DNA of 41,843 bases from positions 1-41,843 of the forward strand of contig MNUP01000003.1 in assembly GCA_001871075.1 (NCBI GenBank), given 5' to 3'. The position numbers and the translations under genes are program-made. This document shows positions 6,895 to 32,759 of the stretch, piece after piece; the stretch's first letter is position 1; each line of letters opens with the position of its first letter. The stretch is from Candidatus Desantisbacteria bacterium CG1_02_49_89. Lineage in GTDB: Bacteria > Desantisbacteria > UBA1551. A model generated the notes under the pieces. The model had not been told where the DNA came from. It saw only the letters and a program-made list of their open reading frames with translations, and made no database searches.

Positions 6895-9800
6895 ATGAGA
6901 AAAAAGATCTTTGTGGCTTTAACGATACCGCTGTTCTGTTTGTCCTTTATTCTTTTCACGGAGGCGCAGGATGATGAGTCAACAAACTACGCTTCCATTG
7001 CCGGCATTGTCGACGCGGGACGGCAGGCATCGGTCATACAGTACCTGGCGGGCCTGAAGTCCAGGATCACGGGCCTTGAAGGCGCGGACGCGGCAGCTTC
7101 GTACATTCAGGCGAAGTTCGCGGAACTTGGCCTGAGGGATATCCGGACCCTCGAATTCCCGGTCGTGGTGCCTGTTGAAAAACGCGCCGCCCTCACTGCC
7201 GCCGGGGGCAAATACGAACTCCATGCCCTCTGGCCCAACCTGACCAATCCATCCACTCCTGATTCCATAACCGGGCACATCATTTACGCGGGGACAAGCA
7301 AGCTGTATGAATACAACCAGAAATACGTGACCGGTTCGATAGTGCTGCTTGATTTTAACTGCGGCGGGGACTGGTTCAACGCGTTCCTGCTTGGAGCGAA
7401 GGCGGTCATATTCATTGAGCCGTCTGAAACCCTAAGGGGCGAAACGGAGAAAAAATACCTTTCAATACCCCTGTGCGTCCCCAGGTACTGGATCTCCCGC
7501 TCCCAGGGCGAAGCCCTCGCGAGAGCGGTTTCAGGCAAAAAGGAAATAATAGGCGAGCTGAGGTCAGCGATGGCCTGGGAGAAAAGGACGGGGAAGAATA
7601 TAGTCGGTTTCATACCCGGCCAGGACCCCAAGCTCAAGAACGACCTTGTGATAGTGGAATCATTTTACGACGCCATTTCCGTGGTGCCTGCCCTTGCTCC
7701 GGGCGCCGAGGATGCGTGCGGCATTTCCGCGCTGCTTGAGGTGGCAAGAACGCTTAAGGCATTCCCTCCCAAGCGCACGACCATGATACTCGCGTCCAGC
7801 GGCCACTTCCAGGGCCTTGCAGGCATGAAACATTTTATGAACTACTGGAACGAGCAGGCAGGCAAGGAAAAAGAGGGGAAAAAGACTACGGAAGACAACC
7901 TTGCTTTCAAGAAACCCGCGAAGTGCTCGAGCCGCGAGCCCTCGATATCGTATGTCCCGGACAGCGCGTTCGACGGAAAGATGAACACAAGATGGTCCTC
8001 GTCCCAGCGCAGGAGGGATGATGAATGGCTCACGGTGGATCTGCAAAAGCCGGAAACGATCGCGCAGATAGTTCTGCAGTGGGAGCTTTCATACTGCCCC
8101 AGATACGTTCTCATGTCTTCAGTTGACGGCACATCGTGGGACACTATTATTGAGGCTAAGTCCAATAAGGGCGGGGAAGACGTTGTAGCGTTTACGCCCC
8201 GCACAGCAAGGTACCTGAAGATGCAGCAGCTCAGCAGGGTTACGGGCTCAAGCGGCTGCTCGCTGTGGGAATTTGAGGTTTATCCAAAGCAGGTTACGGC
8301 GGTTACGGCGGTGCAATTCCCCGAGATCGCCCTGTCTATCTCGCTTGACCTTTCCAGCCGCGGAGAGGGAGTGGGCATTTTCTACAAGGGTTCTTTTTAC
8401 GACCAGAGGGAAGACGACCTGAAACCCAAGTATTCATCCATGGGGATGATGTGCTCGACATACGCTTCCGCGATAAGCGAGGAGCTGGGATTACCCGAGC
8501 AGTATTTCGCCAACGGCATAAACCCGCTGAAAGGAAGGTCGTGGAGGACGTTCATCCCCACCGACATGGCTTTTAACGGCGAAGCGGTGACGCTGTTCGG
8601 CAGGACAGGCATTACGCTTGCCTCGACAAATGACGGCCGCCCGCTGGTGGATACTCCGCTGAACAAGTTTGACAAGATCAACGTTTCAAACCTGGGCAGG
8701 CAGACGAAGTTCGCGGCCTGCCTTGTTAACAAGATGGTCAACGGCCCGAAGATGCTGACAAAACTCGACATCCCCAATTACGCCTGCACGCTGAAGGGAA
8801 GGGTTGTTGAGTTTGACCCCAGGGTGTCTTACATACCCAACACGCCGGTGCCCGGCGCCATAGTCGCGGGAAGGGGAAGGGCGAAGATCTTCACCGGGGT
8901 GCGCGGGGAGCTGATAGACATCGCAAGCTTTGAAGGAGGAGAAAACGGGACAGACACGGCGTCCTTTAAATTCATAGGCCTGCCGTCGGTCAGGACCAGT
9001 TTCATCCCGCCCGAGAACAAACAGCAGGTCGAGGCGTACATAATAGACACCGGAGGCCAGGTCATATACGCTCCGGATATGGGAGAGCAGGGAGCAAAGG
9101 CGTATCCGATATCAGTGCCGCTGGACTGGGCCGAGAAAGAGGCGACCGTAGTCGTTTTTCCCTGCGTGAGCGTGTCGATGTATGACCTGATCGACCAGAG
9201 GTTCTACAAGACGTTCCAGTCGGTAAGCGTTTTCGACGGAAAGACCAACGCCGAGCCCACGCTTTACGGGTTTTCTTTCCCAAGGCAGATGGGCACGTTC
9301 TTCCAGGAGCCTGCCGCCCTCATCTACATGAGGCCGAACGAGCTCCTTAAGGTCACAATGGGCGCGGGCATAGTGGGCACCCAGTTCACGCTCTTGAACT
9401 CGACCGAGACCGAACCACTGGGCCGCGGGTATAAAGCGATGTTCCACTCAAGCGTTCCGCTCACGCCGTACAAAGTGGCAAAGGACATGTGGATCCTTGA
9501 CAACTGGAGGATGGGCATCCTGAAAAGGCGCGGCATCGAGAATAACCGGCTTGAAGAGCTGCACCGCCTCGCGCTGAGGGACCTTACCAGGGCTGACACG
9601 GCGCTTGCCGCCATGGATTACGAGCATTTTATAAGGTATTCCCGCACAGCGTGGGGTTTTGAATCAAGGGCTTACCCTGATGTGCGCGCCACAGGCGACG
9701 ACGTTGTCAAGGGGGTCATATTTTATTTATTCCTGCTCCTGCCTTTCGCGTATTTCCTGGAAAGGCTTTTCTTCGCGTTCCCCGACATCAGGAAGCAGAT

Positions 9801-23386: not shown

Positions 23387-24082
23387 TTAGACCTTTTCAA
23401 GCTCCGTGGCCAGGATTATCGCTTCAGCGACTTCTTTCATTGATTTGCGGATATCCATGCTTTTTTTCTGGATACGCCTGAAAGCCTCTTCTTCTGTCAG
23501 GCCCTGCCTCATGAGGATGCCCTTGGCGCGGTCAATGATTTTCCTTGTTTCAAGCTCCTCCTGTATCTCCCGGGATTTCAGCATGAGCTGGGCATTCTCG
23601 ATGACGACCGCTGCCTGGTTTGCGATCGTGCTCAGGAGGTTTATTTCCTCCTCGGTGAATTCGTGCGGTGAATCGGTGTAACAGTTCAGCACCCCGATCA
23701 CTTTGCCCTTCACGCTCAGGGGGACGCTGAGCAGGGAACAGAGCCCTTCCTTTTCGGCTATGTCGTGGTTTATATAGTGCCGGTCCTTTTTCACGTCCAG
23801 CACAGCAACCGGCCTGTTTTCCTTCGCGGCCCTGCCGGCGATTCCCTCGCCCAGCCTGATGGAATTCTTCTTCCTGTATTCTTCGCTTATGGATTGGGTC
23901 GCGCATATGGCAAGTTCTTTCTTTCCGTTCAAAAGCAATAGGGAACAGATCCTGGAGTTCATGACCTCGGCGGTGATGGAAACAATGGAATTCAGGATGT
24001 CGTCAAGACACATATTTGACGTCATCATTTTCCCGATCCTGGAAAGCGCCTCTATTTGTTTGCCGTACGTGGCTGCATTCAT
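23387..24082 (-). CDS. GAF-ANTAR transcription antitermination regulator
   Basis: A 231-residue cytosolic regulator. The GAF sensory domain spans about residues 15-160 (LLSVPLSVKGKVIGVLNCYTD; INLLSTIANQAAVVIENAQL), followed by a short coiled coil (KSREIQEELETRK) and a C-terminal ANTAR domain (about 175-230, DRAKGILMRQGLTEEEAFRR then KSMKEVAEAIILATEL). ANTAR proteins (AmiR, NasR, EutV) bind two tandem hexaloop hairpins in nascent RNA and prevent intrinsic termination. The gene is the third of an operon whose leader carries such hairpins, so it is probably autoregulated. Candidate targets are the four leaders in this window. The GAF ligand is unknown; a nitrogen signal would fit. There is no receiver domain and no obvious kinase partner. 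Confidence 0.92.
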   Translation of the reverse strand: MNAATYGKQIEALSRIGKMMTSNMCLDDILNSIVSITAEVMNSRICSLLLLNGKKELAICATQSISEEYRKKNSIRLGEGIAGRAAKENRPVAVLDVKKDRHYINHDIAEKEGLCSLLSVPLSVKGKVIGVLNCYTDSPHEFTEEEINLLSTIANQAAVVIENAQLMLKSREIQEELETRKIIDRAKGILMRQGLTEEEAFRRIQKKSMDIRKSMKEVAEAIILATELEKV

Positions 24083-24623: not shown

Positions 24624-26240
24624 TCAGGCGGAAGCCAGCGTGGGCTCTTTGCGGTTCTTCACCTTCACGGCGCGCCCGTTTAAAATGCTTTCCACCTCTT
24701 TCCAGTCAGACTCCATGACAAAAGGAATGCCCGAAACATCGGATGCTTCCCGCGTCAACGCGACAATATCATCCCTGGTTATGTGTTTCAGGGCGAATTT
24801 CCTTTCGCCCGCCATAAGCTGCCGCAGGCCCGTAACGAGCCTGTCATAATAGGTATACATGCCGATCGCGCCGGCGGGTATTTTTGAAAAGTCCTTGCCG
24901 TATTTATCTTTCAGTTTTTCGGCATTGACAAATACCTGTTCGATCGAGTCGCCGTATTTCTTGTATTCGGGCGGGACCTTTCCTTCCTTAATAAGGTTCC
25001 CGACGGTCTTTGCGGCCATTGTCGCGGCGAAGGTAGCCCTTCCCATGCATATAGCCTTTACGTACGGCGCTCCCAGCGCGAGGGCCTTGAAAATGTGATC
25101 TTCCAGCGAAAACCCGCCTGCCATCGCAACGGGGGGGACATGCATGCCTTTTTCCTCGATCTTTCTCAGCATGTTATAAAGCATGGATTCAAGTTCCACT
25201 GTCGGGATCCCCCACTCGTTCATCATCCTCCATGGGCTCATTCCGGTCCCGCCGCTTGCGCCGTCCACCGTAAGCAGGTCTATTTTCGCGACGGAAGAAT
25301 ATTTTACCGCCCTTGCCAGGTCTGCCGGGCGGTACGCGCCGGTCTTAAGGGTCACGTACTTGAACCCGAGTTTCCTGAGCCGCTCAACTTCCTTATAAAA
25401 TGCTTCTTCTTCAACCATTCCGAGGCGTGAGTGCCTTTCGAATTCCTTGATCGCCCCTTCCTTGTATGCTTTCTGGACCACGGGGTCTTCGGGATCAGGA
25501 TACACGATGTATCCTCTTTTTTTGAGCTGCAAAGCCCTTTCTATTGTGGGGAGCTTAACTTCTCCCCCTATGTCTTTCGCGCCCTGTCCCCATTTCGGCT
25601 CGATCGCTTCCACTCCCAGCTCAAGCACGTATTCCGGAACTCCGAGCCTTCCGTCTTCAATGTTATACTGGACCACGATCGCGCCGCTGCCATCATGCCA
25701 TTTCTGGTAGCTCTTGACCCTCCTGTCCATTTCCGGGGATTTCACGACCCTGCCGTTCTTGATCTCGCTGTCAGGGTCCATCCCGCAGACGTTCTCGCCT
25801 ACCACCACCATTGTGCCGCAGATAGCCGCTCCGACCGCGGTGTCCTCCCAGTTTATGCGGGCCACATCTGTTGAACCCAGCGCTCCGGTGAAAAACGGGA
25901 CATCCAGTTTCAGCCTGTTTTTGGACCCGATCTCGGTGCCAACATTCACTGAAGGGAAGGTGGCTTTGTCCGAATCCGCCTCTGTTCCTACCGCTCCCAC
26001 GCAGGTCCCCTGAATATTAAAATGCGAGAAATCTATAGGGTAATCTTTCTCGCTTCCCGCCACGATCTTTCCGTAAGGCTGGGGATAGAGAAACTCCCTG
26101 CCTCTTATGGCTGACTTAGCCACCTCGCACAGGCCGACGCACCCATCCATGCATGTTACGCACAGCCCGGATACGGGCGACGCGTTCACCCTGTTCCTTG
26201 TCCCTGTTGCGGGACTCGCATTAGGCTTGCTGAACGACAT
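24624..26240 (-). CDS. FMN-binding glutamate synthase-like protein
   Basis: A 538-residue member of the GltB FMN-domain family. An N-terminal cysteine cluster (CVTCMDGCVGLC, about residues 27-38) suggests an Fe-S site. The TIM barrel carries KTGAYRPADLARAVKYS, TVDGASGGTGMSPWRMMNEW and an alanine/glycine-rich phosphate-binding region (MAGGFSLEDHIFKALALGAP). The C-terminal 3Fe-4S motif of classical GltB (CNxCxxxxC) is missing, unlike in the second copy at 35051, so this is a different subfamily with an unproven reaction. The ATG follows AAGGAAGGAGG. It is the first gene of the operon with the nucleotidyltransferase and ANTAR regulator and has a long, doubly attenuated leader (26241-26653). Confidence 0.88.
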   Translation of the reverse strand: MSFSKPNASPATGTRNRVNASPVSGLCVTCMDGCVGLCEVAKSAIRGREFLYPQPYGKIVAGSEKDYPIDFSHFNIQGTCVGAVGTEADSDKATFPSVNVGTEIGSKNRLKLDVPFFTGALGSTDVARINWEDTAVGAAICGTMVVVGENVCGMDPDSEIKNGRVVKSPEMDRRVKSYQKWHDGSGAIVVQYNIEDGRLGVPEYVLELGVEAIEPKWGQGAKDIGGEVKLPTIERALQLKKRGYIVYPDPEDPVVQKAYKEGAIKEFERHSRLGMVEEEAFYKEVERLRKLGFKYVTLKTGAYRPADLARAVKYSSVAKIDLLTVDGASGGTGMSPWRMMNEWGIPTVELESMLYNMLRKIEEKGMHVPPVAMAGGFSLEDHIFKALALGAPYVKAICMGRATFAATMAAKTVGNLIKEGKVPPEYKKYGDSIEQVFVNAEKLKDKYGKDFSKIPAGAIGMYTYYDRLVTGLRQLMAGERKFALKHITRDDIVALTREASDVSGIPFVMESDWKEVESILNGRAVKVKNRKEPTLASA

Positions 26241-26352
26241 TGTCTCCCTCCTTCCTTTAAGATATGATTACGGTGATTGTTTACTGATGATTACGGTGAT
26301 TAAATATCTTGAATCACTGCAATCTCTTTTAGAATCACTGTAATCAGTCTGT

Positions 26353-26427
26353 AAAAAAAAATAAACGTCTTCCTTGCCATGAACCGGATGGTTCACGACT
26401 GTAGAGGTCATCCTCTACGGAAGACGT
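26353..26427 (-). terminator. Second, branched terminator in the glutamate-synthase leader
   Basis: On the minus strand ACGTCTTCC pairs with GGAAGACGT around two inner hairpins (GTAGAGG/CCTCTAC and GTGAACC/GGTTCAT), making a three-way junction, followed by TTTATTTTTTT. It would halt transcripts that escaped the first terminator. The class of structure is not one I recognise. Confidence 0.75.
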
Positions 26428-26547
26428 CCTTGTTCCCCCTGTTCCGATACATCAGAGTGACAGGGGGGTTCGATGCATTCCATGCATCTCTGTCCTACGA
26501 AGCCCGTCTTTTCTGCTCCAAGAGCTTCCGGAGGGCGTAGTAGGACC
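26428..26547 (-). promoter_or_regulatory. Structured leader segment between two terminators
   Basis: Minus-strand RNA can form GTCCTAC/GTAGGAC enclosing GCCC/GGGC (26478-26546), GATGCAT/ATGCATC (26459-26475) and CCCCCTGT/ACAGGGGG (26433-26466). This is probably part of a multi-step leader; no known riboswitch class is recognised. Confidence 0.55.
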
Positions 26548-26585
26548 AAAAAAAAGCCTTCTCTCCCGTCATCGGGAAAGAAGGC
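26548..26585 (-). terminator. First terminator (attenuator) in the glutamate-synthase leader
   Basis: On the minus strand GCCTTCT..CCCG-ATGA-CGGG..AGAAGGC is followed by eight T (26548-26555). The 5' arm GCCTT is the 3' arm of hairpin P2. Confidence 0.9.
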
Positions 26586-26616
26586 AGCTCTGCCTTTCTG
26601 ACACATAACCGTGTCA
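26581..26616 (-). promoter_or_regulatory. Dual-hexaloop ANTAR-type RNA motif of the glutamate-synthase operon
   Basis: P1 (26599-26616) TGACAC/GTGTCA has hexaloop GGTTAT, which departs from consensus. P2 (26581-26596) AAGGC/GCCTT has hexaloop AGAGCT with A1 and G4. The linker is 2 nt and P2 overlaps the terminator. Layout fits the ANTAR motif; the P1 loop sequence does not. Confidence 0.68.
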
Positions 26617-26625
26617 ACTGGATAT

Positions 26626-26653
26626 AGTATAACACAAAAAATACGGTTGTCAA
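26626..26653 (-). promoter_or_regulatory. Promoter of the glutamate-synthase/nucleotidyltransferase/ANTAR operon
   Basis: TTGACA (26648-26653), 16-bp spacer, TATACT (26626-26631) on the minus strand. Unlike the other three nitrogen promoters it lacks the CGACGC box upstream. Confidence 0.85.
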
Positions 26654-26859: not shown

Positions 26860-26912
26860 TTTGTTTTCGCTCGTATAAATGAATAATAAAAGACGAAAAT
26901 ATACGATTTTTC

Positions 26913-26941
26913 TTGACTTTTAACTGAAAATATGGTATATT
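26913..26941 (+). promoter_or_regulatory. Promoter of lexA
   Basis: TTGACT (26913-26918), 17-bp spacer, TATATT (26936-26941). The AT-rich spacer may hold a LexA operator, but no recognised SOS box is evident. Confidence 0.75.
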
Positions 26942-26983
26942 ATAATTAGCAATAGACGATGAAACAGGAAAGGGGAAAGAGAA

Positions 26984-27598
26984 ATGGGGGAATTGCTGAC
27001 TGCAAAACAAAAAGAACTGTGGGAGATCATAAAGGACTTTATAAAACAAAATAAAGTGCCACCTACATACGAACAACTCAGAGATGCGCTAAAAGTAAAA
27101 TCACTTGCTACTGTTGCTGCTCGTCTTAAAATGTTGGTCAGAAAAGGTTTTATACAGGTAATGCCCGGGGTAGCGCGCGGAATAAAACTTTTAAAAACAA
27201 GCGAGGATCAGGTCTTGATTAGAAAGCCCTTATTAGGTACTTCTGCAGCGGGTCCGCCCGTTCTGGCGGAAGAAAACATAGAGAAGGAAATTGAATTTGA
27301 CGCTGACGCAGTTAATTCCATCCCTGACTTTTTTCTGAAAGTTAAAGGCGATTCCATGATAGGAGCCGGGATAAATGACGGCAACCTTATAGCAGTTAAA
27401 CAAAACGTTCAACCCAATAACGGCGACATAGTAGTTTATATGGTTGACAACGAAAGCACGATAAAAAGATTTTACCAGGGCAAAGACTGTATAATATTGA
27501 AAGCAACAAATGACAACTACCCAAATATTATAATTAAAGACACCGGAGACTACTCCGCTGTCGTCGGCAAAGTAGTAGGAGTTTTAAAAAATAATTAA
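26984..27598 (+). CDS. lexA: LexA-type repressor / S24 self-cleaving peptidase
   Basis: A 204-residue SOS repressor. The N-terminal winged helix (residues 1-65, TAKQKELWEIIKDFIKQNK; PPTYEQLRDALKVKSLATVA) resembles LexA_DNA_bind. The cleavage site is Ala89-Gly90 in TSAAGPPVLAE. The catalytic dyad is Ser124 (KGDSMIGAGI) and Lys161 (ESTIKRF). RecA-stimulated self-cleavage would lift repression. It begins 43 bp after the promoter and is followed 18 bp later by a small gene, suggesting a damage-inducible operon. Its low-GC codon use matches the island rather than the host, so it may be the island's own regulator rather than the chromosomal LexA. Confidence 0.9.
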   Translation: MGELLTAKQKELWEIIKDFIKQNKVPPTYEQLRDALKVKSLATVAARLKMLVRKGFIQVMPGVARGIKLLKTSEDQVLIRKPLLGTSAAGPPVLAEENIEKEIEFDADAVNSIPDFFLKVKGDSMIGAGINDGNLIAVKQNVQPNNGDIVVYMVDNESTIKRFYQGKDCIILKATNDNYPNIIIKDTGDYSAVVGKVVGVLKNN

Positions 27599-27616
27599 AA
27601 AGGGGAGGTACAAAAA

Positions 27617-27949
27617 ATGAACGAGAGTGAAAAAAAAGCACGCGAGTTAATACATTCCGCAGTCTTTAGAATTATTCGCCAGGCAGAACCCATTCCTATA
27701 AGTGAGTTTTTTAATAAGACAATAGGAGAGGTCATGCCGACGACGCCAACCCCACCAGGATGGGAAAATTTTTGGTGGGAGTCTTTGGCGATAGAAATTC
27801 AAAGACTATTTATTTTGGAAGGGCGCTACATTCTTGATTTTGATGAAAAATGGTTGGAAGATAACAAAGATAAAAAGTGGGAGGAATTAATTTCATATTT
27901 AGCAAGTGGAAAGCTGGTACCTTTCAAGAAAGAAAAGGAGGAGAAATAA
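27617..27949 (+). CDS. Small acidic hypothetical protein
   Basis: A 110-residue protein without signal peptide or membrane segment; I recognise no family. It opens with a charged helix (ESEKKARELIHSAVFRII), has a Pro/Trp-rich centre (TPTPPGWENFWWES) and ends with a Lys/Glu tail. GGGGAGG stands before the ATG, 18 bp after lexA. Its end contains the ribosome site (AAAGGAGGAG) of the following gene, so the three are very probably co-transcribed and could all be under LexA control. Confidence 0.75.
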   Translation: MNESEKKARELIHSAVFRIIRQAEPIPISEFFNKTIGEVMPTTPTPPGWENFWWESLAIEIQRLFILEGRYILDFDEKWLEDNKDKKWEELISYLASGKLVPFKKEKEEK

Positions 27950-27950
27950 A

Positions 27951-29129
27951 ATGAAAGAAAATATTTTAAAAAAAATATCCATCGGGTCGGTAGTGTGTAT
28001 AAGTTGCTTGCTATTCGCATCTAATACATTTGCATTTAGCGCAAGAGTAGAGGAAACCTCTGGGAAAGATAGAAGTAGTCTCGAATACGCAACTCAATAT
28101 CGTATCCTTGTAAATAATATCGAACCCCCACTCACTACAAATCAGACAGAAGACACAAAGACGTTTGGGTTGAAAGAGAAGGAGAGCGGCAAGACTGTTA
28201 TGATAACTTACTCACTGGGCTCAGGATTCCCAAATGACGATGGTACATATAATAATGTAATATTGTGGGGTAATTTTGCAGTGAACAAAAAATATGAATT
28301 AATTATAAATTATCCTGATGGTATAGTTACCAAAAATGAATTCGGTGAAGAAAAAATAGAGGAGAAACATTCTATTGTTGATATTTTTGGCCGGGACCTC
28401 TCTTTTCAAATCGGAGCGCACGAAGTGGGGGGGACAGACGAAATCGGATTTGATTATGATTTAGAATGGAAAATGGTTCGTTGGTCTCTCGGCAGAATGA
28501 AAGACCATGTTTTTAATATTTCATTAGTTGCCATTGGGGATTTAGGTACTAATCCAAAAGACCCTATGATCCAAAGCAGCTTACGAGAAAGCTCCGTTTT
28601 GGATTATCGCTGGCATTGGTACTGGCCCCTTGTAAAATATACATATCCTATGGGAGTTAAATGCAAATTTGCTGAAATTGAAAGCACCCAAGATTTTAAA
28701 TTGGTTGATTACACATTTAAATTTGGTTTTGCTATGGCTCTTCCAATTATAGACCTACCAGTGTTGTGGTGGCATTCTTTTGCTAAAATTAATATGCCGT
28801 TTTTCCCTTGTCTTTTTTATTGTGGTTACACTTTTGCATCAGAGTTAAGGAACATAGACAGCATTCAATCAAATATTCGCGGAAATCGACTGGACGCCGA
28901 ACTTATATATGCTTTTCCCATTTGGAAAGATAAAGATTTTAGTATTAAATGGTGGGCGTTTTACAATTTTGAAAATCAAACATTTGCAAATATGGTCGAT
29001 ACCGATATTAAATTTTATTTTAACCAAGACAGAAAAGCTGGGTTTATTGTAGGATACCAAAAAGGAGCACTCCCGCCCGAATTTAAAAATTCAGAAGCGG
29101 TTAAAACAGGTTTTACTTGTAATTTTTAA
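27951..29129 (+). CDS. Secreted, probably outer-membrane or envelope protein
   Basis: A 392-residue protein with a Sec signal peptide (MKENILKKISIGSVVCISCL, likely cleaved after NTFA near residue 26). The mature part is rich in aromatic residues in alternating beta-like runs (YRWHWYWPLVKYTYP, FKFGFAMALPI, IKWWAFYNFENQTF) and ends in TGFTCNF, with a C-terminal Phe as in outer-membrane beta-barrels. This favours a small barrel, but I cannot name a family. The ATG is placed at 27951 after AAAGGAGGAG, 1 bp past the stop of the previous gene. A LexA-linked envelope protein is unusual. Confidence 0.7.
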   Translation: MKENILKKISIGSVVCISCLLFASNTFAFSARVEETSGKDRSSLEYATQYRILVNNIEPPLTTNQTEDTKTFGLKEKESGKTVMITYSLGSGFPNDDGTYNNVILWGNFAVNKKYELIINYPDGIVTKNEFGEEKIEEKHSIVDIFGRDLSFQIGAHEVGGTDEIGFDYDLEWKMVRWSLGRMKDHVFNISLVAIGDLGTNPKDPMIQSSLRESSVLDYRWHWYWPLVKYTYPMGVKCKFAEIESTQDFKLVDYTFKFGFAMALPIIDLPVLWWHSFAKINMPFFPCLFYCGYTFASELRNIDSIQSNIRGNRLDAELIYAFPIWKDKDFSIKWWAFYNFENQTFANMVDTDIKFYFNQDRKAGFIVGYQKGALPPEFKNSEAVKTGFTCNF

Positions 29130-29159
29130 TAAAATTTAATACCAAGGTTGGTTTTCAAC

Positions 29160-29187
29160 TTGACATTTCCTATTTTCCTGATACAAT
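29160..29187 (+). promoter_or_regulatory. Promoter of the restriction-modification genes
   Basis: TTGACA (29160-29165), 16-bp spacer, TACAAT (29182-29187), 55 bp before the methylase ATG at 29243. Confidence 0.8.
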
Positions 29188-29242
29188 ATTGGACAAAAGT
29201 TCCAAGTGTCTAATATTTAAAAAGCACAGGGAGGAGAAAAAT

Positions 29243-31063
29243 ATGGCCAATGAAAGAATAACAGAGGATATAATAAGAAAACATTTTAATGCTTACTCTA
29301 ATGAATGCATAATTGAAGAGCAAAAATCTTCAAATCCTAAAATTGATAAATTATTGAAAGCTGCTTCCAAAAAAGGAGGTGGAAGGGGATATCCGGAATT
29401 TATTATCTCTCTTAAAAATAGCTCTGTATTTATTATAGTAATTGAATGTAAAGCAGATATTACCAAACACCAAAGTACTACATTAGACAAATATGATGAA
29501 TATGCGGTAGATGGGGCATTGTTGTATGCTTCCTTTCTTTCTAAAGAATATGATGTATTAGCAATCGGTGCAAGTGGACAAAACTTGACGGAGTTTAAAG
29601 TTTCACATTATTTATACTTAAAAGGAGAAAAGAACCCCATCCATATTTTTAGCAACAAATTATTAGACATAGAAAGCTATATCAATGGTTATTTAAAAAG
29701 TCCTGAAAAATTCAGACAGGATTATAATGCTCTTCTTGATTTTTCAAGGGATTTAAATGTGGAATTACACCATCATAAAATACCAGAAAAAGATCGTGCA
29801 TTATTAATCAGTAGTATTCTTATAGCATTAGATGATAAAGCATTTCGTAAGGCATACAAAGAATATGAGAAACCAGAAGAACTTGCTAAATTTCTAGTTG
29901 ATACAGTTTCAAATGTTTTGCGCCATGCCAATTTAAATGGGAAAAAATTAGACGATCTTAATATTCAATTTAGCTTTATTCACCTTAATGCATCATTATC
30001 AACCAAACAGGGCGTGTTACAAAATTTGATTGATAGTATTGATGAAAATATAAACAAATTCATAAAAACACATGAATATTACGATGTATTAGGGCAGTTA
30101 TATATCGAATTTTTACGATATGCCAATAGCGATAAAGGGTTAGGTATTGTTCTTACCCCACCCCATATCACAGAATTATTTTGTGAGTTGGCAAGTGTAA
30201 ATAAAAATAGTGTAGTATATGATAACTGCTGTGGTACAGGCGGTTTTTTAATCAGCGCATTAAGGAAAATGATAAAAGATGCAGAGGGTGATTTAAAAAA
30301 GGAAAAAGATATTAAAGCTATGCAAATCTTCGGAGTTGAGTTTCAGGCAAATATTTTCGCTCTAGCTTGTTCTAATATGTATATACACCAAGACGGTAAA
30401 AGCAATGTTATTAATAGAGATTGTTTTTACGCTGAAGTTATAGAGCAGGTTAAAAAATATAAGCCCACTGTAGGTTTTTTAAATCCACCATATCAAGCAG
30501 ATAAAAAGAAAGATACTGAGGAATTGGAATTCGTGCTGAACAATTTAGAGGTATTACAACCAGGAGCAATTTGTGTAGTGATAGTGCCAATGCAATGTGC
30601 TTTGGCTCAAAAAGGAAAAAAGTATGAACTAAAGAGACAACTTTTAGAAAAACATACATTAGAAGCAGTATTATCAATGCCCGATGAACTATTTTTTGAT
30701 TCTGATGTGGGGGTGGTTACTTGCGTTATGATATTTACTGCACATAAGCCACATCCAACAGGCAAAGAAACCTATTTTGGTTATTATAAAGATGATGGAT
30801 TTGCAAAACGAAAAACAAAAGGCAGAATAGATGCTTTTGGTAAATGGGGAGACATTAAAAAAGAATGGGTATCATCTTATATAAACAGAAAAACAAAAGC
30901 TGGGTTTAGTGTGAATGAAATTGTTACCGCTAATGATGAATGGTGTGCTGAAGCATATATGGAAACCGATTATAGTCTTTTATCAAAAGAAGAATTTATC
31001 GATACGGTTAAATCATTTTTGGTTTTTAATGAACTATACATTAAAAAAAATGAAGCTAACTAA
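29243..31063 (+). CDS. Fused endonuclease/N6-adenine methyltransferase (BcgI-A-like)
   Basis: A 606-residue protein. The N-terminal nuclease-like region contains a PD-(D/E)xK pattern: PE52, then E68-C-K70 (VIECKAD). An alpha-helical region follows, then an N6-adenine methylase core: LTPPHITELFCELA, SAM-binding NCCGTGGFLIS (about 328-338) and catalytic NPPY (414-417). The C-terminal part is the usual HsdM-like tail. Length and arrangement match the A subunit of type IIB enzymes such as BcgI (about 637 residues), where cutting and methylation share one chain and a separate S subunit gives specificity. The ATG at 29243 follows GGGAGGAG. The gene overlaps the S-subunit gene by 14 bp. Confidence 0.88.
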   Translation: MANERITEDIIRKHFNAYSNECIIEEQKSSNPKIDKLLKAASKKGGGRGYPEFIISLKNSSVFIIVIECKADITKHQSTTLDKYDEYAVDGALLYASFLSKEYDVLAIGASGQNLTEFKVSHYLYLKGEKNPIHIFSNKLLDIESYINGYLKSPEKFRQDYNALLDFSRDLNVELHHHKIPEKDRALLISSILIALDDKAFRKAYKEYEKPEELAKFLVDTVSNVLRHANLNGKKLDDLNIQFSFIHLNASLSTKQGVLQNLIDSIDENINKFIKTHEYYDVLGQLYIEFLRYANSDKGLGIVLTPPHITELFCELASVNKNSVVYDNCCGTGGFLISALRKMIKDAEGDLKKEKDIKAMQIFGVEFQANIFALACSNMYIHQDGKSNVINRDCFYAEVIEQVKKYKPTVGFLNPPYQADKKKDTEELEFVLNNLEVLQPGAICVVIVPMQCALAQKGKKYELKRQLLEKHTLEAVLSMPDELFFDSDVGVVTCVMIFTAHKPHPTGKETYFGYYKDDGFAKRKTKGRIDAFGKWGDIKKEWVSSYINRKTKAGFSVNEIVTANDEWCAEAYMETDYSLLSKEEFIDTVKSFLVFNELYIKKNEAN

Positions 31064-32003
31064 ATTATCAAACATATTTGATATTAAATATGGAAATGGT
31101 TTTGAATTGTATAATTTAAAATCATACCAAAAACGTATTATAAATACTATTCCTTTTGTTGCACGCACGGCAGAGAATAATGGTATTTCTGCTTTTGTCG
31201 AAATAATAAATAATGTTGTACCATTCCCAAGTGGTTTAATTACTGTTTCTGTAGGCGGTTCAGTTTTAGAAGCATTTTTACAGCCCGAAAGATTTTATAC
31301 AGGATTTCATGTTTTAGTTCTTTTTCCTAAATATGAAATGGAAATAGTTGAAAAATTATACTATTGTTATTGTATAAGAAAAAATAAATATAAGTATAGT
31401 TATGGCAGGCAAGCAAACAAAACTCTAAAAGATATACTTATTCCTAAATCTATACCTCAAGATTTTGTTATCATTAATTGTGAAAAATTAAATACTCTTA
31501 TCCCCCAAAGTATAATAAATCAAAAATTTGAATTAAATACAAACGATTGGCAATTATTTGAATTAAAATCTTTATTTACTATAAAGGGTAGCAAGACAAC
31601 ACCGCTTTTAGAATTAGAAGACTACGGAATTGGTAAATATCCTTATGTAACAACGCGAGCAACAAATAACGGAGTAGAGGGGTTTTATAATTATTATACA
31701 GAAGAAGGAAATGTACTAACCGTGGATAGTGCAGTTTTGGGTTATTGTAGTTATCAGCCATTGCCATTTTCAGCAAGCGATCATGTTGAAAAACTTATAC
31801 CTAAATTTAAAATAAATAAATATATCGCTTTATTTTTAACTACGATAATAAATTTAGAACAATATAGATATAATTATGGTATAAAATGCAGTCAAATAAG
31901 AATGCGTAAACTAAAAATAAAATTACCAGTAAAAAATGGTAAACCGAATTGGGAATTTATGGAACGATATATAAAATCGTTGCCGTATTCAATCTCAATA
32001 TAA
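31050..32003 (+). CDS. Specificity subunit (HsdS/BcgI-B-like)
   Basis: A 317-residue protein with two target-recognition domains of similar layout: residues 1-155 (KLTKLSNIFDIKYGNGFEL...SVGGSVLEAFLQPERFYTGF) and 160-317 (WQLFELKSLFTIKGSKTTPL...TVDSAVLGYCSYQPLPFSA). Each is followed by a conserved helix (KNKYKYSYGRQANKTLKDI; EQYRYNYGIKCSQIRMRKL). Two domains predict a bipartite recognition site. I start at ATG 31050, which overlaps the methylase gene by 14 bp; an upstream start would read through the methylase in another frame. It ends 28 bp from the convergent GXGXG gene stop, exactly at the island edge. Confidence 0.88.
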   Translation: MKLTKLSNIFDIKYGNGFELYNLKSYQKRIINTIPFVARTAENNGISAFVEIINNVVPFPSGLITVSVGGSVLEAFLQPERFYTGFHVLVLFPKYEMEIVEKLYYCYCIRKNKYKYSYGRQANKTLKDILIPKSIPQDFVIINCEKLNTLIPQSIINQKFELNTNDWQLFELKSLFTIKGSKTTPLLELEDYGIGKYPYVTTRATNNGVEGFYNYYTEEGNVLTVDSAVLGYCSYQPLPFSASDHVEKLIPKFKINKYIALFLTTIINLEQYRYNYGIKCSQIRMRKLKIKLPVKNGKPNWEFMERYIKSLPYSISI

Positions 32004-32030
32004 AAACAAAGGAACTTTTTTCCAGTAGTC

Positions 32031-32759
32031 TTAGTATGCATACATCCTTCCGTAAGGGCGGTGGGTGATAGGGCAGAGGACCGTGAACATATCCCTGCTG
32101 AATGAGCGGGCGTCAAGCGAAAATATCCCGCAGTATTCGTTCAGGAGCGGGAAAACGCGGTTCCAGGACTGTTCGTCCATTCCGTTTTTTCTCGCTTCTC
32201 CGCCCAGCTGAAAGTCTTCAACCTTTCCCTTTACCGCTATTATCCCTCCGTGCATTCCGGTGCCGATGTAATTCCCCGCGGGCTTTGGGTTTCCTTCCCC
32301 CAGAACAACGAGCGTCCCGCCGGCCATGTATTCGCCCGCAAAGTCCTGCACGCTGCCGCCTATAATGATCACCGGATCCAGGTTTTCGTATGATTTCATG
32401 TGTATCCCGACCCGGTATCCGGCATTTCCTTTTATATATATCCTGCCCCCGCGCATTGAATGGCCGACTATGTCCCCGGCGTCCCCGTGCACGGCTATGG
32501 AGCCCCCGCTCATCGTGTTGCCTGTCCCGTCCTGGCAGTTCCCCAGCACCGTGATGCCGGGTCCGTCCATAAAAGCGCCAAGGTCATTGCCGGGAGTTCC
32601 TTTTATCGTGATGAGGGCGGCGGCTTTTATCCCGTCGGCTATGTAGCGCTGGCCGTTGATACCCTCAAGGATTATTTCTCCTTCGCCGGATCCGGTAAGG
32701 CAGCGGATCTTTTCGTTCAAAGCCCGGTAATTCATTCCCGTCGCGTTAATAACCATCAT
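32031..32759 (-). CDS. Glutamate synthase GXGXG (alpha-subunit) domain protein
   Basis: A 242-residue single-domain protein with the right-handed beta-helix GXGXG repeats of the glutamate synthase C-terminal domain (GAFMDGPGITVLGNCQDGTG, GDIVGHSMRGGRIYIKGNAG, GEYMAGGTLVVLGEG, GTGMHGGIIAVKGK). In archaeal-type split glutamate synthase this is the separate third subunit, structural for the ammonia tunnel. The ATG (32759 or 32756) follows GAGG. It is the last gene of the minus-strand glt operon, directly abutting the foreign island; the operon has no visible terminator. Confidence 0.92.
   Translation of the reverse strand: MMVINATGMNYRALNEKIRCLTGSGEGEIILEGINGQRYIADGIKAAALITIKGTPGNDLGAFMDGPGITVLGNCQDGTGNTMSGGSIAVHGDAGDIVGHSMRGGRIYIKGNAGYRVGIHMKSYENLDPVIIIGGSVQDFAGEYMAGGTLVVLGEGNPKPAGNYIGTGMHGGIIAVKGKVEDFQLGGEARKNGMDEQSWNRVFPLLNEYCGIFSLDARSFSRDMFTVLCPITHRPYGRMYAY

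Follow-up and report, generated by a model that had tools for sequence, protein, structure and literature searches.

A bona fide lexA gene beside a BcgI-like restriction-modification pair in an AT-rich island of a Desantisbacteria genome: a possible local controller of restriction

The window analysed here is a stretch of 41,843 nucleotides of contig MNUP01000003.1 from Candidatus Desantisbacteria bacterium CG1_02_49_89. From about 26,860 to about 32,010 it contains an AT-rich island, in which lexA, two orphan genes and the two genes of a restriction-modification (RM) system are encoded on the plus strand. The promoter of lexA was located at 26913..26941 (+), where TTGACT and TATATT are separated by 17 nt (10 of 12 matches) and TG precedes the -10 element. 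The lexA gene (26984..27598, +) encodes 204 amino acids with a LexA DNA-binding domain and an S24 peptidase. The protein scored 176.3 bits against the TIGR00498 equivalog (cut-off 110.95) and matched PF01726, the winged helix, with E 1e-15 and PF00717 with E 4e-29. In the alignment, the Ala89-Gly90 cleavage site and the Ser124 and Lys161 dyad were all present. Judged by the score above the curated cut-off and by the catalytic residues, the gene product is a bona fide LexA at the level of sequence, and its identification in the preliminary description was borne out. The locus does not fit a C-protein RM system, which would have an Xre-like C protein, since its putative regulator is LexA. Three short matches to 26905-26950 elsewhere in the genome proved to be promoter look-alikes.

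Two orphan genes follow. The first (27617..27949, +) starts 18 bp after lexA and encodes 110 amino acids; no family match was obtained in profile searches. The second (27951..29129, +) encodes 392 amino acids, with an N-terminal hydrophobic signal-like segment, a strand-rich sequence and a C-terminal Phe. The protein is possibly an outer-membrane or exported protein. It matched no family, a search of 40 other genomes and of viral contigs gave no homologue, and an AlphaFold model made without an alignment was unusable (pLDDT 32). Thus, the earlier term "envelope protein" is a fair guess rather than a result.

The RM genes possess a promoter of their own at 29160..29187 (+), with TTGACA, 16 nt and TACAAT (11 of 12 matches), the best in the region. 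No terminator-like site was found on the plus strand between 29130 and 29243. The A (RM) subunit gene (29243..31063, +; 606 aa) matched PDLC03608 with E 3e-153. Its product retains an N-terminal PE..ECK nuclease motif (residues 51-70), DNCCGTGGF (327) and the NPPY methylase motif (414). The specificity (S) subunit gene (31050..32003, +; 317 aa) shares 14 bp with the end of the A gene and matched Methylase_S (E 3e-27) and PDLC03594 (E 4e-34). The pair is 40-42% identical to plasmid homologues. By its sequence it is an intact BcgI-like type IIB/IIG system, for which double-strand cuts on both sides of a bipartite site are predicted; the type IIG/IIB and specificity models and the kept motifs bear out the restriction system named in the preliminary description.

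The G+C content per kb is 0.27-0.41 across 26.5-32.0 kb, down from about 0.52, versus 0.45-0.58 over most of the contig. The sixteen flanking genes have a gene G+C of 0.47-0.57 and a third-position G+C of 0.54-0.73, whereas the third-position values of the island genes are 0.16-0.38. The overall and third-position values are 0.40 and 0.38 for lexA, 0.38 and 0.38 for the 110-aa gene, 0.36 and 0.31 for the 392-aa gene, 0.31 and 0.22 for the A subunit gene, and 0.27 and 0.16 for the S subunit gene. The nitrogen genes on either side are encoded on the minus strand, opposite to the island genes. On the right, the S subunit gene ends at 32003 and the gene for the GXGXG glutamate-synthase subunit (32031..32759, -), the last of the glt/glnA/nadE run, ends at 32031, leaving a gap of 27 bp. 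On the left, the lexA promoter starts at 26913. The left flank begins with a glutamate-synthase-domain gene (24624..26240, -), which opens a block that also contains an ANTAR regulator gene and carAB. Thus the sharp change of composition, the opposite strand and the closeness of the right edge to the end of the glt operon, all pointed out previously, were reproduced by our measurements.

The glt promoter (26653-26626, -) and the structured leader RNA of glt (26625-26241, -; fold z -10.5) lie outside the island and look intact. Therefore, the island sits upstream of the glt promoter. No integrase or transposase was seen in the island, no edge duplication or target-site duplication was found at its borders, and the direct repeats within it were only weak, chance-like pairs. 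The window gave no Rfam match at gathering scores. Relatives had been proposed as a source of an empty site; no clean one was obtained, and the second genome described below keeps the glt/car block with a different gene upstream. Since another contig of the window's genome carries a second AT-rich lexA-RM block, the island is not purely an assembly artefact in kind. The island is real, laterally acquired, AT-rich and foreign in composition.

The glt leader beside the island was also inspected. The region 26241-26653 (-) contains two terminator-like hairpins and resembles the leader of the homologue in the second genome (L062 about 6930-7150). Two genes downstream, 23387-24082 encodes a GAF-ANTAR protein, and the leader looks like an ANTAR-type antitermination leader. 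At 26265-26350, just before the glt start codon, four GATTACRGTGATT-like repeat copies occur in two orientations and can pair mutually.

Within the phylum, two genomes of the same order were compared, that of the window (G000) and a second one (G001), which are 93% and 87% complete. Each genome possesses exactly two lexA genes and no others, and all four are linked to RM genes, each to a different RM system. In three of the four loci, a methyltransferase gene follows lexA at a distance of 12-38 bp; in the window, lexA is two genes away from the RM pair. In G000:C135, lexA is followed after 12 bp by a D12 methyltransferase, an AlwI-type endonuclease and an N4/N6 methyltransferase. In G001:C35 (lexA, L060 10133-10750), the gap is 16 bp and the next genes encode a diverged methyltransferase, an HNH protein and a D12 methyltransferase. 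In G001:C41, an N4/N6 methyltransferase and an endonuclease follow after 38 bp. A gene for a putative exported protein between lexA and the RM genes occurs in the window only and in none of the other three loci.

LexA of the window is 52% identical to that of C35, and the C135 and C41 proteins are 75% identical; the four loci are two orthologue pairs and are not fully independent. The RM genes differ within each pair, and the RM sets of the four loci are unrelated, save for a weak methyltransferase resemblance. Most RM loci in the two genomes carry no lexA; when methyltransferase loci are counted by contig, G000 has about 9 and G001 about 15. In these genomes, lexA predicts RM and RM does not predict lexA. 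In all four loci, lexA has a G+C of 0.40-0.42, as native G001 genes do, and the RM genes lie at 0.26-0.35. The native G+C of G000 is about 0.52, and both of its lexA genes are foreign in composition. The RM genes may have been joined to lexA in a host of the lineage with about 40% G+C, from which the blocks would then have entered the 52% G+C genome.

Two further features of the G001 loci were observed. LexA of C35 has Ala-Gly-Gly in place of Ala-Ala-Gly at the scissile site, where the bond is Gly-Gly or is shifted by one; its cleavage may differ from that of the window LexA. The methyltransferase of C41 (L061 4406-5788) shares 55% identity with one that the archaeon Picrophilus oshimae carries on a plasmid, and this match suggests wide transfer of that RM system.

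As a control, 80 lexA loci of close LexA relatives in other genomes were collected, and 72 of them had a parsable lexA frame. No RM neighbour of lexA was detected in any of the 72, whether by motifs, by comparison with the RM proteins of the four loci, or by a Pfam and PADLOC scan that covered 57 adjacent proteins; the Pfam result covers the 25 most frequent of 72 families and PADLOC yielded a single weak mad2-type match, so that at most one RM neighbour could be hidden. With the four loci treated as independent, Fisher's test gave p 8e-7 for the linkage and 6e-5 for direct adjacency alone, values that overstate the evidence because the four loci are two orthologue pairs. The neighbours of the control lexA genes include SulA and other usual genes, and in another phylum a DnaE-type polymerase gene follows lexA. 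In Ignavibacteria/Melioribacteraceae and one member of Chlorobiota, two small conserved genes (about 80 and 130-149 aa) regularly come after lexA, apparently as part of a conserved lexA operon (L073, L080, L090, L105, L121, L123, L137).

The promoters were then searched for LexA operators. A CTGT-N8-ACAG box was found between the -35 and -10 elements of the lexA promoter in two of the four loci, C135 and C41, one per genus (CTGTAAAAATTTATAG and CTGTAAGAATTTACAG, respectively). Between these loci the promoter block agrees in 52 of 55 bp, while the two lexA genes are 56% identical at third codon positions; this difference indicates selection on the promoter. Elsewhere in G000 and G001, the pattern was not in excess over a reversed-pattern control, and none of the other matches inspected in both genomes lay at an SOS-gene promoter. 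Both genomes possess recA, and the box was not found on a scan of the two recA loci. The promoter-plus-box pattern was also absent from viral contigs. Since the box is present at the lexA promoters, shows no excess elsewhere and is lacking from the recA loci, LexA of C135 and C41 appears to be a regulator that acts locally, on the closely spaced run of lexA and RM genes.

The recognition helix reads SLAT in LexA of the window and C35, and SPNA in the other type. For the lexA and RM promoters of the window and the lexA promoter of G001:C35, a shared-motif search for an operator performed no better than shuffles. A search for LexA operators before 26984 and 29243 had been suggested in the preliminary description; we found no known LexA-box type at either site. 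The sequence GGACAAAAGTTC, which overlaps the RM transcription start and has one mismatch to the Bacillus box, was rejected as chance-level for AT-rich DNA.

Our preferred reading, held with moderate confidence, is that the segment is a defence island gained by lateral transfer, where a true LexA acts as the local, damage-releasable controller of the linked RM system. LexA would take the role held elsewhere by a C protein or a BrxR/CapW-type regulator. It would repress its own promoter and hence the co-transcribed genes (in the related loci, those for methyltransferase and endonuclease). RecA filaments on single-stranded DNA would induce self-cleavage of LexA at the Ala-Gly site, and the operon, or its read-through, would be derepressed. 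The RM linkage of all four lexA genes suggests that the repressor may now act as a local on/off switch for defence. Beside the directly observed gene identities, intact motifs, foreign composition, recurrent linkage and box at two of the four loci, we infer autoregulation, RecA dependence and damage induction of the lexA-RM genes.

That LexA controls the RM genes of the window itself is plausible, and it is the weakest step: these genes have their own promoter, start two genes downstream of lexA and show no recognised operator. The lexA of G001:C35 without a recognisable operator and the many RM loci without lexA also count against local control, as do the Gly-Gly cleavage site of the C35 protein, the three plasmid-borne BcgI-like pairs that have no lexA next to them, the partial dependence of the four loci and the sample of only two genomes. 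The damage-responsive cassette proposed earlier is thus upheld in part, by the RM linkage of every lexA and the box at two of the four loci; in the window itself, with no recognised operator and a separate RM promoter, the decisive link was not seen.

A less likely reading is ordinary cargo: the RM pair would be a passenger unrelated to the lexA operon, both carried by a single AT-rich island or by insertions that came one after another at one site, and LexA would regulate only itself and the two orphan genes. The separate RM promoter and the absence of a shared operator agree with such an origin, as do the stepwise fall in G+C from 0.40 in lexA to 0.27 in the S gene, as if the origin were mixed, and the abundance of RM loci in both genomes. 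However, independent passengers leave unexplained why RM genes are linked to every lexA here and to none of the 72 control genes, and why the gaps at the other three loci are only 12-38 bp.

A remnant of prophage lysogeny appears improbable. The repressor, an exported superinfection-exclusion protein and a restriction enzyme would then have been expressed from the repressor promoter, and the rest of the phage would have been lost. The window order of lexA, orphan, putative exported orphan and RM genes resembles that of the Thermus phages IN93 and Riverbug, namely repressor, lipoprotein or membrane protein, restriction enzyme and integrase (PMC11437467), and we confirmed the IN93 order in the sequence record. 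However, the IN93 repressor is of the CI type (HTH_3 and S24) and is 30% identical to the window LexA over 69 aa, the latter exceeds the LexA equivalog cut-off, the DNA between the glt operons showed neither an integrase nor a phage gene, an excisionase or attachment-site repeat was likewise not seen, and the putative exported gene is confined to the window locus.

Quite unlikely, too, is a LexA that serves the whole cell as the global SOS repressor beside a mere insertion hot spot for RM genes, since the TIGR00498 match, the lack of any other LexA in either genome and the host-like composition of the G001 lexA genes, unlike their RM genes, are set against a box that is neither enriched genome-wide nor found at recA, and against two G000 lexA genes foreign to their host in composition. 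LexA of the window type may nevertheless have a regulon of its own. These three explanations overlap in part.

Local control by LexA may be extended, tentatively, to the phylum, which is sparsely sampled. Its true LexA proteins would have turned from global SOS repressors into dedicated RM controllers, which raise restriction and modification upon DNA damage or upon foreign replication that exposes single strands. Different RM sets would have been attached behind a conserved lexA and, for one lexA type, behind a conserved operator-bearing promoter. We found no report of a true lexA heading an RM operon, or of LexA- or SOS-regulated RM, in the open-licence literature, which is weak evidence. 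Damage to DNA is expected to make RM genes dangerous, and the known response, restriction alleviation by ClpXP, switches restriction down. A LexA-headed RM operon predicts the opposite sign, with RM raised on the SOS signal. If this is true, damage sensing would join the known modes of RM control. The CTGT-N8-ACAG loci C135 and C41 make SOS control of RM directly testable on short synthetic promoters.

The RM pair of the window resembles the A2B architecture described for BcgI (PMC4027205). Like BcgI-type systems, it combines an RM fusion subunit, with PE..ECK and NPPY, and a type-I-like S subunit in one operon. It differs in adjoining a lexA operon, which the three plasmid-borne homologues examined do not.

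In RM systems of the PvuII and BamHI type, the C protein is a small Xre-like activator/repressor (PMC12707154, PMC3874152). As in those systems, a small DNA-binding regulator for which autoregulation is expected adjoins the RM genes of the window; in contrast, this regulator is LexA, with a winged helix and a self-cleaving peptidase, and release upon damage is expected. The BrxR/CapW WYL regulators (PMC9122601, PMC9122589) share the position of a repressor gene upstream of defence genes and the autoregulatory promoter, but belong to another protein family and respond to another signal. LexA represses symE (PMC3874152), and SymE/SymR (PMC1891008) likewise represents a toxic gene under LexA control; there, however, the global LexA is in charge, and no RM system with a linked lexA of its own is involved. 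The nearest precedent in the literature is provided by the Thermus prophage modules of IN93 and Riverbug, with a LexA-like repressor, lipoprotein, restriction enzyme and integrase (PMC11437467). These share the order of repressor, exported protein and restriction enzyme, whereas in IN93 the CI-type repressor is accompanied by an integrase and the rest of the phage, and the window possesses a true LexA and no phage genes.
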